Assembly (NCBI RefSeq): GCF_009664085.1
Contig: NZ_CP039268.1
Location: forward strand, 2,709,001 to 2,773,000
Length of the DNA stretch: 64,000 bases
From: Thermochromatium tepidum ATCC 43061
Lineage (GTDB): Bacteria; Pseudomonadota; Gammaproteobacteria; Chromatiales; Chromatiaceae
Reading direction: 5' to 3'
Shown: positions 51,141 through 58,786 of the stretch, piece by piece
How the letters are laid out: every line of letters starts with the position of its first letter
How positions within the stretch are numbered: the first letter of the stretch is position 1
Translations under genes and position numbers: made by a program
The notes under the pieces: generated by a model
Told to the model about the DNA's origin: nothing
Database searches by the model: none
What the model saw: only the letters and a program-made list of their open reading frames with translations

Positions 51141-51149
51141 TGTGGATAA
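51141..51149 (-). promoter_or_regulatory. DnaA box
   Basis: TGTGGATAA is an exact match to the strict 9-mer on the minus strand, 154 bases upstream of the dnaA ATG. Likely used in dnaA autoregulation or origin function. Confidence 0.65.
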
Positions 51150-51302
51150 GTCGACGCAAGGGCGCTAGACTTGGCCGGTGGTTCAGGCCAGGAGGCCACG
51201 TCCGGCTGCTGTGCGCACCGGCTTCATCATCAAATCCACTCCTTATGCAATCATCCGGGTGGCGCCATCGCGCGCGCTGCCGTATCCAAACCGAGACGAC
51301 GC

Positions 51303-52646
51303 ATGTCGGGAAACGACTTAGCCCTATGGGAGCACTGCATCAATCAATTGAAGGCCGAGTTGACATCCGCCGAGTTCAACACCTGGATCCTGCCCCTGCA
51401 AGCGCGCGTGGATGGCTCATTGCTCAGGTTGTTAGCGCCGAATCGGTTCGTGCTCGACTGGATCCGCAAGCATTATGCCGATCGTCTGCGCGAACTCTGT
51501 ACGCGCCACAGTCAAGGCGAGGTCTCTGAACTTTATTTCGAGGTTGGCGAGTTTGGTGCAGAGAAAGGACAGGGTGCCCGCTCGAAGTCCAGTGTGATCG
51601 GCTCGGATCTGGCCGATCGGCGCGCGACGGCCAATCTGAACGCCGACTTCAATTTTGAGACCTTCGTCGAGGGCAAGTCCAACCAGTTGGCACGCGCGGC
51701 TTCGATCCAAATCGCGCGTAACCCGGGCGGAACCTACAATCCGCTGTTCATCTATGGTGGGGTCGGGCTGGGCAAGACGCATCTGATGCACGCGGTCGGC
51801 AATGGCATCCTCACCTCCAATCCAAGTGCGCGAGTCGTCTATCTGCACTCCGAGCGTTTCGTCGCCGAGATGATCAAGGCCCTGCAGCACAACCGCATCG
51901 AGGAGTTCAAGAAGACCTATCGCTCGGTCAACGCGCTCCTGATCGACGATGTACAGTTCTTCGCCGGCAAGGAACGCTCACAAGAGGAATTCTTTCATAC
52001 CTTTAATGCGCTCCTGGAGTCACGCCAACAGATCGTGCTGTCTAGTGACCGTTTTCCCAAGGAGGTGACTGGACTGGAGGAGCGTCTGCGCTCGCGTTTC
52101 GGCTGGGGTTTGACGGTGGCCATAGATCCGCCCGACCTGGAGACCAGAGTGGCCATCTTGCACTGTAAGGCCAGTCAGCTCGGCGTCGAACTGCCTGAGG
52201 ACGTGGCCTTTTTCGTCGGGCGGTGTATCCGTTCCAACATCCGCGAACTCGAGGGGGCGCTCAGACGTCTGGTGGCTAATGCCCACTTCACCGGCAAACC
52301 CATTACCTTGGAGTTTGCGAAGCAGGCGCTGCGTGATGTGCTCATCGCTCAGGACAGGCAGGTCAGTCTGGAGAACATTCAGCGCACGGTCGCCGACTAC
52401 TACAAGTTGCGCACCTCCGATCTGCTCTCAACCAAGCGTAGTCGCTCGCTGGCACGTCCGCGCCAAATGGCCATGGCGCTCGCCAAGGAGCTCACCAAGC
52501 ATAGTCTGCCCGAGATCGGTCAGGCATTCGGAGGCCGCGATCACACTACGGTTCTGCATGCCACCCGCAAGATCAAGAGCCTGCGTGAAAGCGATGCGAC
52601 GATCGAGGAAGACTACCGCAGCCTATTAAGAATGCTGACGTTGTAG
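51303..52646 (+). CDS. dnaA: chromosomal replication initiator DnaA
   Basis: Origin-binding AAA+ initiator. 447 residues from ATG at 51303. Domain I is [20 protein letters not shown]. Domain III has [20 protein letters not shown] (Walker A), [20 protein letters not shown] (Walker B) and the sensor motifs after [20 protein letters not shown]. Domain IV carries the DnaA-box signature [19 protein letters not shown]. Upstream in-frame sequence in the longer open frame is spacer DNA. dnaN follows after 103 bases. Confidence 0.97.
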
Positions 52647-52725: not shown

Positions 52726-52749
52726 TCGGCGAGAATCATGGAGCCCCTG

Positions 52750-53850
52750 ATGGAATTCATTGTCAACCGAGAAACCGTCCTGCCTGCGCTCAATAAGGTG
52801 ACCGGCGTCGTTGATCGGCGCCAGACCCTGCCGATCCTAGGTCATTTGCTCGTCGTGGCCCGCGACGGGCGCGTCAGCCTCACAGGGACAGATTTGGAGG
52901 TCGAGGTCAAGACCAGCTTCGAGGCCGAGATCTTGCAAGAGGGCGAGACCACGATCCCAGCCCGCAAGCTGTTCGACATCTGTCGCCAGCTGAGCGAGGG
53001 CGCCGAGATCCGGTTTCGCCTCAGGGATGAGCGCTGTGTCATCACCGCAGGGCGCGGACGCTTTACGCTTGGACAGCTACCGGCGACCGACTTCCCGATC
53101 ATGGATCTCCCGGCAGACGGTTTCGACTTTCAGATCCAGGAAGGCCAGCTCAAGCACGTGCTCGACAAGACGGCCTTTGCCATGGCGCAACAGGATGTCC
53201 GTTACTATCTGAATGGTCTGCTGCTGGAACTAAAGGCAGACGCCCTGATCGCGGTGGCGACGGATGGACACCGGCTGGCCAAGTTCGTTACGCCGCTCGA
53301 TCTGGCGCTGGACACTGAGCGTCAGGGGATCGTGCCCAGCAAGACCGTGATGGAGCTTAAGCGTCAGCTGGGCGGATCGGATGCCCCGGTCGCACTCCGT
53401 CTCAGCGAGCGCAGTCTGCGCGTGGTGGTCGGCACCATGACCCTGACCTCCAAACTCATCGATGGTCGCTACCCTGACTATGAGCGCGTGATTCCAGGCC
53501 GTGATGGGGGTATGGCCATCGTCGAGAAGGATGCCTTAAGACGCGCGCTCTCACGCGTCTCGATCTTCTCGAACGAAAAATATCGCGCCGTGCGTCTGGA
53601 CTTCGAACCAGGCAGGCTCAAACTGCTGGCGCACAATCCCGAGCAGGAAGAGGCCGAGGAAGAGATCGAGCTCGATTACGCGGGCGAGCCAATCTCGATT
53701 GGTTTCAATGTCGCCTATCTCATGGACGTGCTTGGCGCCATCGATGCGCCAGCGGTCAGCCTCTATTTTCAGGATGCCAACAGTAGCTCGCTCTGGCGCG
53801 GCGCAGACAGCGAGAGCGAGACCTTTGTCGTCATGCCGATGCGACTGTGA
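52750..53850 (+). CDS. dnaN: DNA polymerase III beta sliding clamp
   Basis: Processivity clamp, 366 residues, the same as E. coli. Features include LPILGHLLVVARDGRVSLTG, DLEVEVKTSF, FAMAQQDVRYYLNGLLLELK and the C-terminal ESETFVVMPMRL, the hallmark end. The ATG at 52750 is chosen because GGAG lies six bases upstream and the N-terminus (MEFIVNRETVLPAL) then matches the family; an in-frame ATG at 52738 exists. Confidence 0.97.
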   Translation: MEFIVNRETVLPALNKVTGVVDRRQTLPILGHLLVVARDGRVSLTGTDLEVEVKTSFEAEILQEGETTIPARKLFDICRQLSEGAEIRFRLRDERCVITAGRGRFTLGQLPATDFPIMDLPADGFDFQIQEGQLKHVLDKTAFAMAQQDVRYYLNGLLLELKADALIAVATDGHRLAKFVTPLDLALDTERQGIVPSKTVMELKRQLGGSDAPVALRLSERSLRVVVGTMTLTSKLIDGRYPDYERVIPGRDGGMAIVEKDALRRALSRVSIFSNEKYRAVRLDFEPGRLKLLAHNPEQEEAEEEIELDYAGEPISIGFNVAYLMDVLGAIDAPAVSLYFQDANSSSLWRGADSESETFVVMPMRL

Positions 53851-53970
53851 TCCGCATACATGCACGGACGCGAATATCCTGATCCAGTCGATCTGAAGTC
53901 AGGTTCCGACATGGAACACTTCAACATCGTTGCAGAGTCGCCCAGTCCAGCGTTTCAGGGGTCAGGCCCG

Positions 53971-55071
53971 ATGTTTCACGTGGAACATTCGGGCCTGACC
54001 CCTGACCCTGGTCTGCGCTCACTTCGGATCAAGTCGCTACGCAACATCCGACAGCTCGATCTCGCCATCGATACGCGGACACTGCTGCTGACAGGGGCCA
54101 ATGGTGCCGGCAAGACCAGTGTCCTGGAAGCCATCTATCTACTGGCGCGCGGGCGGACCTTCCGTGGAACCAAGTCCGGGCCGCTTACTACTCAAGGCGA
54201 GCCATATACCCGTGTTGAGGGTGTCTATCAGGCGTCTGGCTATGACAGGATTCGCCTCCGCTATGTCAAGGAAGGCGCCACGGCTGCACGTGACATCCAT
54301 CCGCCGCTATGGATGGAGACCGGGGACGCCGATTGGCGTTCACCCTTGCAGGTCAAGCTGATCGGCGAAAACGCGCAGATCCTGCTCGAGGGCGACCCAA
54401 GTCTGAGACGTCGTTTCCTGGACTGGAATGTGTTCCACGTGGAACACCGTTTCGCTCAGATCCACAGGGATTTCACGCGCGTCTTGATGCAGCGCAATGC
54501 GGCCATTCGGTCTGGTGGCGGCCAACAGGGGCTCTGGGATCGCAGTTTCATCGCACTGGCCGAATCCATAGATCGCCGACGTGCCGCATTCCATGCCGAA
54601 TGGCGTGCGTACTTTCGGGCGCTGTGTGATGACTATCCGTTTTTGCAAGGGGCCGATCTGCGCTATCGACGCGGTTGGCCAGATGGCTGGGAGCTCGGCG
54701 AGACCCTAGCATCACTGGCCGATCAGGAGTTGGCGCGCGGCTATACCCTGGCCGGTCCGTCACGTGCCGACTTTTGTGTCGACTGGGGGGAGGGTAGACG
54801 CGGCTTTTCGCGCGGACAGGCCAAGATTGTGGTCGCGCTACTGCAGCTCGCGGCTGAACGTGTCCATCGTGCGCATGGGCGTGAGCCGGTCATCTGGCTG
54901 CTCGATGACCTCGAAGCCGAGCTGGACCGCACCATGGCTGAGCGCTTGTGGAGCGCCTTTGGTTCCACGGGCAATCAGGTCATCGCCACGCGCGTGGCGA
55001 ACGATGGCGATCCTGGAATCTTTGGTGGTACGGAGTCGCTGACGATGTTCCACGTGGAACATTCCGGCTGA
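53971..55071 (+). CDS. recF: DNA replication and repair protein RecF
   Basis: SMC-like ATPase that loads RecA at gaps. 366 residues from ATG at 53971, near the normal 357-365. SLRIKSLRNIRQLDLAIDTR leads to Walker A LTGANGAGKTSVLEAIYLLA. LLEGDPSLRRRFLDWNVFHV is the conserved mid-domain, and SRADFCVDWGEGRRGFSRGQ and WLLDDLEAELDRTMAERLW are the signature and Walker B. Starts at 53860 or 53911 are also in frame, but they add non-conserved sequence. Three parS sites lie in the coding region. gyrB, the common next gene, is absent; the following gene is convergent. Confidence 0.95.
   Translation: MFHVEHSGLTPDPGLRSLRIKSLRNIRQLDLAIDTRTLLLTGANGAGKTSVLEAIYLLARGRTFRGTKSGPLTTQGEPYTRVEGVYQASGYDRIRLRYVKEGATAARDIHPPLWMETGDADWRSPLQVKLIGENAQILLEGDPSLRRRFLDWNVFHVEHRFAQIHRDFTRVLMQRNAAIRSGGGQQGLWDRSFIALAESIDRRRAAFHAEWRAYFRALCDDYPFLQGADLRYRRGWPDGWELGETLASLADQELARGYTLAGPSRADFCVDWGEGRRGFSRGQAKIVVALLQLAAERVHRAHGREPVIWLLDDLEAELDRTMAERLWSAFGSTGNQVIATRVANDGDPGIFGGTESLTMFHVEHSG
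53972..53987. promoter_or_regulatory. parS-type site 1
   Basis: TGTTTCACGTGGAACA, one mismatch from the perfect palindrome. It overlaps the preferred recF start codon (ATG at 53971) and lies in a larger inverted repeat with arms at about 53955-53971 and 53988-54005. ParB would be expected to bind and nucleate the partition complex. Confidence 0.85.
54431..54446. promoter_or_regulatory. parS-type site 2, inside recF
   Basis: TGTTCCACGTGGAACA, a perfect 16-bp palindrome identical to the Pseudomonas-type parS consensus. It encodes the FHVE residues of the conserved RecF segment DWNVFHVEHRF. Confidence 0.92.
55046..55061. promoter_or_regulatory. parS-type site 3, at the recF 3' end
   Basis: TGTTCCACGTGGAACA, perfect. 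It encodes the last residues of RecF, LTMFHVEHSG, eight bases before the stop codon. Confidence 0.92.
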
Positions 55072-55115
55072 GACGACTTGAGTCCGGAAACACGCCTGGC
55101 TTTGCGATCTGACGA

Positions 55116-55131
55116 CGTTCCACGTGGAACA
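55116..55131. promoter_or_regulatory. parS-type site 4, after recF
   Basis: CGTTCCACGTGGAACA, fifteen of sixteen bases of the palindrome, in the convergent intergenic space 45 bases after the recF stop. Confidence 0.85.
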
Positions 55132-55160: not shown

Positions 55161-56273
55161 TCAACCCACCCGGATCCGGTCTCCATAGCCGGTCATTTCC
55201 AGATAGCCGCGCCCGATCTCGCGTTCGTCCTCGAACCCACGTACCGCGCCCTCCCAATAAATGGTTCCCGTCGAGCGACGGCTGTCGAGTTCCTGGTCGT
55301 CCATCAGCGGCTGGAGGCGGTAGCGACGCTCACCGATACCCAGATCCCATTCGATCGGGTATTCGATCCCAGTGCGTGGCGACCGCCAGCGCCGCCGCGG
55401 GAACCAGGTGACCTGCTTAGGTCCGAGCGACTGGGTTCGACCATCGCTCAAGCGTCGGGTAGCGCTCGCCCAGAGCGCCGTGCCGTCGGGACGGCGCATC
55501 CGAAAGGCCATGAGGGCGTCACCATCGTCCAGGTTCAGACCGACCCAGTCCCAACCCTCGGCCTCTTCGGGGCTGTAGGCACTCGACCATTCATGATCCA
55601 TCCAGGCGCGCCCGCTGACCGTCCGACGCTGACCCTCCAACGTCACCTGGCCATCGACCCGCAACTGAGGCCGGCTGTAGTAATAGCTGGAATGCAGCGG
55701 GTCCGGCGCCTTGCGACTAAAGCCCTGGTCGCCGTTGAGCATGGGGGGTCCAGTGAAGACGAGTCTGAGGTCATAGTCAAAGTCCTCGGCGTTCACGCGG
55801 GCAGCATAGTGGTCCTCCATCTGCTCGAACGACCAGTCATGGATCCAGACGTGCGCCCGATCCGTGCTGTATCCGGCGCGCTCGAAGCCTGTACGGGCGG
55901 CACGCTGAGCGTGACGCAAGCGACCCAATCGCGGATCGGCGATGGCGGCATGCGCCAGCAGCAGCTGGCGTGGGGCAAAGGCGCTCGGGTTGTCCTCACC
56001 GATGCCAGTGCGCACGCGAAAGAAGGTGATCTGAAAGCCGAACGGATCGCCGTCCGCCTCGATCCAACCGGTCACATACCACCATTCGGTGCGAAATCCC
56101 GGGTGGCCTCCCTCGTCGTTCGGGAAGCGAAGGACGCGACCGGGGAGCACGGCGTCGAAATTGACCTCCGGTTTAGTCTCTGCGCCGACGTTTTTAGCGG
56201 TCGGCTCAGTCGCCGCCAGGAGGGGGGTCAGGGGTAGGCTGGCCAGGGCCAGCAGAGAGGTCCGTCGCTGCAT
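55161..56273 (-). CDS. AttH/CrtC-fold lipocalin-like exported protein
   Basis: About 370 residues with a signal-peptide-like N-terminus (TSLLALASLPLTPLLA). Features of the AttH/carotenoid 1,2-hydratase superfamily are seen: GGHPGFRTEWWYVTGWIEAD, FGFQITFFRVRTG, VSGRAWMDHEWSSAY and GWDWVGLNLDDGDALMAFRM. It is encoded downstream of, and translationally coupled to, an FtsX-type permease, which is the standard companion of AttH proteins. It is therefore more likely an ABC-system substrate-handling or envelope protein than the carotenoid enzyme CrtC. The ligand is unknown. Confidence 0.8.
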   Translation of the reverse strand: MQRRTSLLALASLPLTPLLAATEPTAKNVGAETKPEVNFDAVLPGRVLRFPNDEGGHPGFRTEWWYVTGWIEADGDPFGFQITFFRVRTGIGEDNPSAFAPRQLLLAHAAIADPRLGRLRHAQRAARTGFERAGYSTDRAHVWIHDWSFEQMEDHYAARVNAEDFDYDLRLVFTGPPMLNGDQGFSRKAPDPLHSSYYYSRPQLRVDGQVTLEGQRRTVSGRAWMDHEWSSAYSPEEAEGWDWVGLNLDDGDALMAFRMRRPDGTALWASATRRLSDGRTQSLGPKQVTWFPRRRWRSPRTGIEYPIEWDLGIGERRYRLQPLMDDQELDSRRSTGTIYWEGAVRGFEDEREIGRGYLEMTGYGDRIRVG

Positions 56274-58786
56274 CACCAATCCTCACGCACCGCCAGCACG
56301 GCGTCCTGGCGCATCGCCTGCCGGCCTGCGAGCACGGCGGACAGACTGGCCAAGACGGCAAGCGTGCCCGCAAATACCAGGAGTGAGCGCCAGGGGATGC
56401 TCAGATCCATGCTCCAGTGAAAGCTTTGACGATTCACGACCTGGATCAGAATCCAGGCGATGGCGCCGCCAACCGCCAGCCCGCCGAGTATGCCGACACC
56501 AGCCACCAGGCTGCCTTCGAGGGCGAGTAGACCCCCGATCTGGCCGCGCGTCAGCCCCAGGTGGCGCAGTAGACCGAACTCCCGGCGGCGCGCGGCCGCG
56601 AGCGCCGCAAAGCTGGCCGCCACACCCGCCAGCCCGATGACGACGGCCGCCGCCTCCAGGACATAGGTCACGGCGAAGGTGCGATCGAAGATCCGCAGAC
56701 TGATGGCGCGAATCTCGCCCGGGGCCGTGACCTCCAGCGCCCCCGAACCAGCCGCTGCCTTGAGCGCCTTGGCCAGGCTGAACGCATCGGTGCCCGGCGC
56801 CAGCCAGATGGCGGCATCCTGTACTGAGCGATCGCCGGTCAGACGGCGGTAATCGGTAAGATCCAGCATGAGACTGCCGGTCTGGCGCGCATAGTCACGC
56901 CAGACCCCGGCGACCCTGACCGGCACCTCGGATCCGGACAGCGGAAGACGAACACGATCACCCGGACGCCAACCCTGGAGGTCATGCAGTGCCTCGGAGA
57001 TCCAGATCGCCGTCTCGCCTTCGGCCACCGCTTGGGCCGAACCGACCAGCGGGAGTTCGTGTCCATCGGGTGACACGGGCCGAGCCAGCAGGGCGACCGG
57101 CGGTCGGCCGGGGACCAATCGCAGGCTGTCATGGCGGGTGAACTCGATATGGGCCACGCCAGGCACATCCGCAAGTCGCCGCTGGAGCGCCTCGTCCAGG
57201 ACACCGCCGCTCTGAGTGCGCCCGGCGCGCAGATAGAGGTCAGCCGACAGGATCTGGTCGAGCCAGACCTCGACCGAGTCGCGCAGTGAGTTGACCATGA
57301 TCGCCATAGCGACCACCAGGGCCACGCCGGCGAGAACGCCCGCGGCGGCGACCGCCCCCATCCCCGGGACGGCCCGCAACCGGGCGACGGCCAGCCGTAC
57401 CGGGACAGGTCCCCACAGCGGCAAGACTCGACCGAGTCCGGAGGCGAGCAGCGGCAGCCACAGGAGGCTTCCTACCAGGAGACCGAAGATAGCCAGATAG
57501 CCCCCGATCGGCAGCCCCAGGAACGGCGGCAGGGTGCAGAGTGGCAGACTGGCAATCATCAAGGCGAGTCCGAGCCTGGGGTGTCCGCGTCGCGGCGACA
57601 GGGCCGAATCGCCACCAGACTTAAGTGCCTGGGCCGGCGCGATCCTGGAGGCTTCACGTGCCGGTAGCCAGGCCCCGGCCACACCGGCCCCCACGCCGAG
57701 CAGGATATACAACCCACTGGTCCAGGGATCGAAGCTCAGGGTCGGCGACAGGCCGGCAAAGAATCCGGCACCCAGATCGCCACCGAGGAGTTCGAGCAGG
57801 GCGAAGGCGACCCCATGCCCGAGCGCTACACCGACCACGCCCCCCAGGAGTCCCACGAGCGCCCCTTCCGCCAGCAGCCAGACAAAGAGCTGACGGCGCC
57901 TCAGCCCGATGGCGCGCAGGAACGCCAGTTCGGTATGCCGGCGAACGACCGACAGCGCCTGCGCCGAGAAGACCAAGAACGCCCCCGTCACCAAGCCCAT
58001 GACCGCCAGAAGACCGAGATTGACCCGATAGGCGCGCGAGAGATTCGCCGCCTGACCCTCGGCCGTCTCTGGGACCTCCAGCCACACACCCGCCGGCAGG
58101 AGCGGTGCCAGTGCGGCACGGGCCGTCTGGACGTCGAGTCCCTCGACCAGCTTCAAATCGATGCGCGTCAGCCGCCCGAACTGAGCGAAGTGCCTCTGAA
58201 CCGCCGCGATATCCATGACCGCGAGCTGGCGATCTTCGGCAGCTCCCGGCATATCGCCGGCCACCCGGAGCTCCAATGGCTGGGAACCGGCATAGACGCG
58301 CAGCCGCTCGCCGGGTCTGACGGCGAGGGCCGTCTGAGCGGCGGCACTGAGAAAGAGGCTGTCCTCGGCCAGCACAGCGCGACGCGACTCGGACTCGGCT
58401 CGATCCGCAGACCTCGCCGGACGCGCCAGGAGCGCGGGCGTGACGGCGGCGGCCGCGAACGGATCCAAACCCAGGATATGGAGCCTATCCGTGGTGCCGA
58501 GACGCTCGGTCCAGACCTCCAGAACCGGACTGGCCTGTGCGACCTCGGGGCGTGTCGCCAGGTGCGCATAGAGCGCCTCGTCGAAGCCGGTGCGCGGACC
58601 CAAGACCTGGAGGTCGGCGGCGCCGGCCAGGGTGCGCAGACCGCGACCGAACTCAGCGAGTGCAGCCTGATTGACGGCGTGCACGGCCATACCGAGCGCC
58701 ACACCCAGCACAATGGCGGCGAAAGACAGGAGGGTCGCGGCGCGCCGCCGCCCCAGCGAGCCGAGAAATACCGGTGCCAGTCTCAT
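56273..58786 (-). CDS. FtsX/MacB-family ABC transporter permease
   Basis: Inner-membrane protein of 837 residues built as two repeats, each with a periplasmic domain. The N-terminal helix is AATLLSFAAIVLGVALGMAV. FtsX-like clusters follow at about 250-400 (VVRRHTELAFLRAIGLRRRQ), and a second half ends ALAAARRREFGLLRHLGLTR then GLLALEGSLVAGVGILGGLA. Permeases of this class extract lipids or lipoproteins or drive envelope conformational change rather than import. It overlaps the ATPase gene by four bases and the AttH gene at the stop/start (TGATG). Confidence 0.85.
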   Translation of the reverse strand: MRLAPVFLGSLGRRRAATLLSFAAIVLGVALGMAVHAVNQAALAEFGRGLRTLAGAADLQVLGPRTGFDEALYAHLATRPEVAQASPVLEVWTERLGTTDRLHILGLDPFAAAAVTPALLARPARSADRAESESRRAVLAEDSLFLSAAAQTALAVRPGERLRVYAGSQPLELRVAGDMPGAAEDRQLAVMDIAAVQRHFAQFGRLTRIDLKLVEGLDVQTARAALAPLLPAGVWLEVPETAEGQAANLSRAYRVNLGLLAVMGLVTGAFLVFSAQALSVVRRHTELAFLRAIGLRRRQLFVWLLAEGALVGLLGGVVGVALGHGVAFALLELLGGDLGAGFFAGLSPTLSFDPWTSGLYILLGVGAGVAGAWLPAREASRIAPAQALKSGGDSALSPRRGHPRLGLALMIASLPLCTLPPFLGLPIGGYLAIFGLLVGSLLWLPLLASGLGRVLPLWGPVPVRLAVARLRAVPGMGAVAAAGVLAGVALVVAMAIMVNSLRDSVEVWLDQILSADLYLRAGRTQSGGVLDEALQRRLADVPGVAHIEFTRHDSLRLVPGRPPVALLARPVSPDGHELPLVGSAQAVAEGETAIWISEALHDLQGWRPGDRVRLPLSGSEVPVRVAGVWRDYARQTGSLMLDLTDYRRLTGDRSVQDAAIWLAPGTDAFSLAKALKAAAGSGALEVTAPGEIRAISLRIFDRTFAVTYVLEAAAVVIGLAGVAASFAALAAARRREFGLLRHLGLTRGQIGGLLALEGSLVAGVGILGGLAVGGAIAWILIQVVNRQSFHWSMDLSIPWRSLLVFAGTLAVLASLSAVLAGRQAMRQDAVLAVREDW

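Follow-up and report, generated by a model that had tools for sequence, protein, structure and literature searches.

The recF gene of Thermochromatium tepidum and the bases just after it carry four palindromes of the parS type, three of which are also read as RecF codons. Two questions follow: are these palindromes the centromere of the chromosome, and, where one stretch of DNA must serve both a partition site and a repair protein, which of the two dictates the other?

Four palindromes beside the presumed origin

Within the window (the whole 64,000-nucleotide stretch of the T. tepidum chromosome that was analysed), the four sites, all on the forward strand, lie at 53972..53987 (site 1), 54431..54446 (site 2, the middle site), 55046..55061 (site 3, the C-terminal site) and 55116..55131 (site 4). 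They are where the original prediction had put them, and they are the sole matches to TGTTTCACGTGAAACA at three or fewer mismatches; shuffled windows hold a mean of 0.06 such matches and none of 100 shuffles reaches four. Two of the palindromes had been called perfect, and the 16-mers of sites 2 and 3 are. That of site 1, TGTTTCACGTGGAACA, is one base off, and that of site 4, CGTTCCACGTGGAACA, departs only at its outermost base and keeps a perfect 14-bp core. A genome-wide parS search, which had been proposed as a check, was run on the single contig of 2,958,290 bases (2.96 Mb). It found the exact core GTTYCACGTGRAAC four times, always in or just after recF, and a reversed control pattern not once. 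Allowing three mismatches in 16 adds two scattered imperfect matches versus five for the control pattern, and allowing two mismatches in 14 adds four versus six. The locus therefore holds the 14-16 bp palindrome around CACGTG that defines parS, as four exact cores and two perfect 16-mers. The four palindromes are real and beyond chance, and they are very likely functional parS sites.

Their neighbourhood is that of a presumed replication origin. A consensus DnaA box, TTATCCACA (51141..51149, reverse strand), lies just upstream of dnaA and marks the presumed oriC side. Then follow, all on the forward strand, dnaA (51171..52646, with Pfam DnaA domains; the start is that of the longest frame and the true one may lie further in), dnaN for the beta clamp (52738..53850, three DNA_pol3_beta domains) and the recF frame (53860..55071, TIGR00611 and SMC_N), which holds three of the four sites. 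The sites lie 2.8-4.0 kb from the DnaA box and dnaA, which clusters them near the presumed origin; GC skew gave no clear origin mark there. The frame is a RecF by its TIGR00611 score (237.5 bits, cut-off 172), and the best fold matches of its predicted model (mean pLDDT 85.1) are solved RecF structures. In that model the middle motif lies at a helix end and the C-terminal motif at or just after the last strand. Site 4, downstream of the recF stop codon, is non-coding and sits between recF and a converging crtC-like lipocalin-domain gene (55161-56279, reverse strand). The crtC-like gene follows recF here, versus gyrB in E. coli. The order recF then gyrB is the usual one in many relatives.

The reading of the coding sites as F-H-V-E-H proved correct, and the three share one codon phase: site 1 gives M-F-H-V-E-H in an N-terminal extension of RecF, site 2 V-F-H-V-E-H and site 3 M-F-H-V-E-H. 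Site 1 is translated only if recF starts at or upstream of the ATG at 53971. It is also the centre of a 51-bp inverted repeat (53955..54005, no strand assigned) that covers this ATG, a possible recF start, and whose 17-nt arms are 100% complementary. The RNA of 53935-54025 folds at -59.6 kcal/mol (z -8.7), which predicts a very stable hairpin. Site 1 recurs in two genomes of the same genus, G073 and G103, and in G073 a diverged repeat, still partly complementary by eye, occupies the same place. The N-terminal extension of the G073 recF (L048) bears two parS sites, each preceded by an ATG. The idea that the site-1 palindrome belongs to a dispersed repeat was rejected, its 45-mer being unique in the genome at up to three mismatches; its arm, too, is in no excess in the window (seven matches, two of them the arms themselves, versus 4.45 expected).

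The genome has a single parB match, in a parAB locus about 115 kb from recF and the parS cluster (genome positions 2646829-2647761; G000, L001), and the adjoining frame is parA-like, a name given from its sequence. A match to the ParB family model alone is no proof of a chromosomal parB, because the E. coli control genome also matches it. The contact residues of this ParB, G-K-S-R, N and G-H-A-R, fit the parS type, and it has the equivalents of R173 and G201 (numbering of PMC7383237), residues which the accessible part of that paper describes as conserved among ParBs. With parS-type contacts and a parA-like neighbour, the pair is probably the cognate ParB and ParA of these sites.

Distribution of the sites across the class

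I compared recF genes in three samples. The family sample comprised 116 genomes, 87 with a RecF match, of which 82 gave 83 rows (G030 gave two) and five (G048, G055, G059, G074 and G113) were left out as RecF fragments or weak matches. In the class sample of 134 genomes, one per family, 110 of the 133 besides the window's own were read, and in the phylum sample 45 of the 53 genomes outside the class. The 83 family and 110 class loci make 193 RecF rows, and 80 named loci were also read; most of the 193 and the 80 were chosen by similarity or by even draws. The G030 draft has two different recF genes on separate contigs (L092 and L096), each with both parS sites, and is possibly a mixed assembly.

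At least one exact core was found in 95 of the 116 family-sample genomes and in 117 of the 134 class-sample genomes, and exactly two cores is the count in 82 of the 133 class-sample genomes besides the window's own. Core counts reach 10 in G108, 10 in G074 and 12 in G232; in G108 (L113) seven exact cores lie within one 1.9-kb stretch at recF. The cores are mostly inside the gene: of the 215 cores in 110 class genomes 178 fall in the recF frame, and 76 of the 104 class genomes with any core have them nowhere else.

The internal sites were said to lie at conserved places in the protein, and they do occupy homologous positions, mid-protein after D-W and near the C-terminus, recurring across the class at the same codons. 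Among the 193 RecFs the middle site is exact in 165, the C-terminal site in 159, both in 145 and neither in 14. Over 285 class RecFs, rows that are not all distinct species since the 193 and the 80 named rows overlap partly (L406 with G012:C3), the exact core is found at the middle in 215 and at the C-terminus in 216, the C-terminal count being lowered by a few broken or partial RecFs (L129, L244 and L245). For the 80 named loci the figures are 43 (middle), 49 (C-terminal) and 41 (both). Of 13 Pseudomonas-group loci (L334-L346), 12 have both sites at these same codons, and so do named loci of Onishia, Chromohalobacter, Vreelandella, Marinobacter, Rheinheimera and Pseudoalteromonas. The listed loci of Enterobacterales, Pasteurella, Vibrio, Photobacterium, Shewanella, Marinomonas, Marinobacterium and Salinicola have no exact core at either position.

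Outside the class, not one of the 45 RecFs has an exact core at either site, and FHV[EK] is found in none at the middle and in one at the C-terminus. For these rows I drew only on the lack of the core and of the FHV[EK] peptide, since one alignment, stretched at this place, puts the H in 31 of the 45 and another shows no such H. On a FastTree tree of 330 rows each site changes 36 times. The simplest history is a gain near the base of the class with repeated loss afterwards, its direction resting on the outgroup. No relatives were confirmed in viral contigs.

The DNA site and the RecF peptide

Where the peptide FHV[EK] is present, its codons are nearly invariant. Across the 193 rows, it is written CAC-GTG-RAA from the H onward in 165 of 167 middle motifs, when the genes' own codon usage would give 9.6±3.0, and in 161 of 164 C-terminal motifs (10.0±3.0 expected). 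In the same recF genes an HV without the preceding F is written CACGTG in only 1 of 57 cases. Synonymous codons are fixed at these two places beyond what the protein requires.

The original prediction supposed that parS makes use of codons that the protein needs. An explanation of this kind, in which FHVEH is required by RecF in both motifs and parS came to lie on codons that the protein already held fixed, has something in its favour: among 70 class RecFs without an exact middle site F is kept in 61 and H in 46, and the C-terminal FHVE survives with other codons in Vibrio and Shewanella. However, protein need cannot fix synonymous codons, and the remaining residues behave differently. In the same 70 RecFs V is kept in only 8 and E/K in 33, and among 63 readable rows without an exact C-terminal site F is kept in 51, H in only 23, V in 34 and E/K in 38. 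Moreover, 21 of the 215 exact middle sites and 40 of the 216 at the C-terminus encode K in place of E, a reversal of charge that parS allows. I regard this protein-first account as improbable. The synonymous base of the F codon was strongly tied to the choice of E or K in raw counts (Fisher 4e-13 at the middle, 1.7e-6 at the C-terminus), and the link was dropped when independent pairs gave median p values of 0.125 and 0.625.

Judged by which residues persist in rows without an exact site, F looks intrinsic to RecF, parS seems to have imposed the V of the middle motif and the H of the C-terminal one, and the rest look mixed. In 59 rows with more than two mismatches at the middle site, a cut that is partly circular, V is kept in 2% and E in 34%, against 97-100% for the neighbouring R-R, D and W. 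The whole FHV[EK] without an exact core remains in 6 of 70 middle and 13 of 69 C-terminal class rows. Because FHV[EK] is so rare without parS codons, part of the RecF peptide seems to owe its sequence to selection for the DNA site, and the causal order first proposed is largely reversed: on these alignments the partition site appears to dictate this part of RecF more than RecF dictates the site.

When independent pairs are compared on the tree, the peptide disappears along with the site in 11.9 of 15 at the middle and 12.2 of 16 at the C-terminus, and the reverse never occurs; the test is one-sided by construction, since a RecF with the exact core necessarily has the peptide. The two sites show only a weak tendency to be lost together (7.1 of 15 pairs, median p 0.04). 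The amino acids do change when the site is lost, with exceptions, and the paired losses, the codon lock and the class-wide positions together bear out the broader proposal that parS and RecF sequence co-evolved. Free variation of the codons under a retained peptide, which would have told against that proposal, is confined to a minority, 6 of 221 middle and 13 of 229 C-terminal FHV[EK] rows, the 13 being mostly Vibrio and Shewanella; the rest are locked. These rows, with FHV[EK] kept in non-parS codons, indicate that the peptide can persist after the site has gone, or serves some purpose of its own.

A structure in the recF message that controls translation or decay, and not a DNA-binding protein, might also hold the codons, and site 1 does form the tip of the predicted hairpin over the ATG. 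The predicted folds of sites 2 and 3, however, are just slightly more stable than those of shuffled sequence (z -2.3 and -1.6), and that of site 4 is no more stable (z -0.3). Nor would a role in the message account for a fourth site beyond the gene or for a core that occurs nowhere else in the genome, and I hold this reading to be very improbable. Least probable by a little is that the palindromes are operators of some other regulator of the dnaA-dnaN-recF operon that shares the parS sequence: expression of the P. aeruginosa operon genes drops under excess ParB, as the accessible part of PMC5521831 reports, and a regulatory side effect is likely for that reason, but the sequence is the parS consensus and, in the accessible part of PMC4368675, ParB is shown to bind the matching recF sites of P. 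aeruginosa.

Losses, variants and known systems

The relation between site, ParB and peptide can be followed where nature has disturbed it. Within the genus, G073 has four exact cores, all in recF. G103 has one at the N-terminal position and three others 7.8-12.4 kb further on, and its middle and C-terminal peptides read LLYAKP and LVRLTQ. G026, a draft in 90 contigs, lacks both an exact core and a parB match; it has two loosened matches on other contigs, and its peptides read FQAAP and VHMPI. Absence of parB from a draft is not proof of its loss. In the class sample an exact core is lacking from 4 of the 6 genomes without a parB match versus 13 of the 128 with one (Fisher p 0.002), and some of these 13 have variant sites. 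Two drafts, G245 and G246, have no parB match, yet cores are present. The RecF of E. coli K-12, whose family is reported to lack par genes (accessible part of PMC4368675), reads CFHNEP at the middle and MFTVEK at the C-terminus.

In a few genomes matching variant sites stand at both positions. G212 has GTTTCATATGAAAC at both recF sites (read FHMK), G139 has GTTCCACATGGAAC at both (FHME), G118 has GTTTCACATGAAAC and its reverse complement, and G146 has GTTCTACGTAGAAC (FYVE) and GTTCCACGTAGAAC (FHVE). The loosened pattern matches nothing but the recF variants in G139, G118 and G146, and in G212 it matches two further sites that differ in sequence. When 12 of the 13 ParBs were aligned (that of G164 was left out), departures at parS-contact residues were found in G139 (K171L, R204K), G146 (S172P, R204K) and G212 (G170S, K171R). 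Among other genomes with variant sites, G118, G121 and G089 have standard contact residues save for K171R in G118 and G121, a change also found in G103, whose sites are normal. In G164 the parB match is weaker, and even the loosened pattern finds no site. Such comparisons are suggestive, not proof, of a three-way co-evolution of ParB, parS and RecF. I would put at even odds the wider proposition that in most of the class the centromere is an ancestral pair of sites in the recF coding sequence, that ParB, parS and RecF evolve as a unit in which drift of the ParB contacts would lead to rewriting of both sites and of RecF, and that lineages which have lost ParABS, such as E. coli with its CFHNEP and MFTVEK, keep in the protein a decaying fossil of the centromere they once had.

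For T. tepidum itself I am considerably more confident, and consider it highly probable, that the four sites are the centromere of the chromosome and that those embedded in recF fix codons and RecF residues, with RecF tolerating them. ParB would load as a CTP clamp at parS, 2.8-4.0 kb from the origin, and the ParB-parS complexes would be moved apart by ParA. Two of the sites would be long-standing in the class, each built into its own fixed place among the recF codons. Because recF stays beside dnaA-dnaN, the centromere would stay by the origin even where parAB has moved; and since the DNA site cannot give up the CAC-GTG at its centre, selection on the DNA would fix the codons and with them RecF amino acids, most clearly V at the middle and H at the C-terminus, and E/K and others in part. 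RecF would tolerate the residues imposed on it, which would drift after loss of the sites or of parB. ParB binding and segregation in T. tepidum, the reason that recF was chosen and the tolerance of RecF are what I infer here. The middle E/K and the C-terminal V, kept about half the time without an exact site (33 of 70 and 34 of 63), speak against this account.

If it is true, some residues of a widely conserved repair protein have been set, throughout a whole bacterial class, by a site for chromosome mechanics and not by what the protein does, and the apparent "conserved motif" of RecF should not be taken as a catalytic or binding motif. It would also suggest that a centromere can be kept next to the origin through being written into the origin operon, and the many natural losses and variants would allow direct tests of how ParB, parS and a bystander protein evolve together.

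That parS1 and parS2 of P. aeruginosa lie inside recF is published (accessible parts of PMC5521831 and PMC3909081). What is apparently new is the class-wide codon lock and its effect on RecF, of which I found no statement in the literature searched, in so far as its texts were accessible and with few subscription papers covered. Among the closest known systems, the chromosomal parS of Caulobacter crescentus is of the same palindrome type and has the same type of ParB (PMC5815017 and PMC7383237, as far as accessible), but it is not tied to recF codons, and none of the 45 RecFs outside the class carries the site. The parS of Xanthomonas citri likewise lies close to the origin, within the dnaN-recF pair or adjoining it; there, according to the accessible part of PMC3937727, it is the 3' end of dnaN, whereas here two positions in recF are used. 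In a third close system, parS1 and parS2 of P. aeruginosa, the palindrome and the gene are the same. The accessible parts of PMC5521831 and PMC4368675 place these recF sites among parS1-4, any one of which suffices for segregation, and the latter also describes intragenic parS mutated without amino-acid change. P. aeruginosa has ten parS sites, four near the origin and six elsewhere (PMC4368675, accessible part), whereas T. tepidum has four exact cores, all within 1.2 kb at recF.
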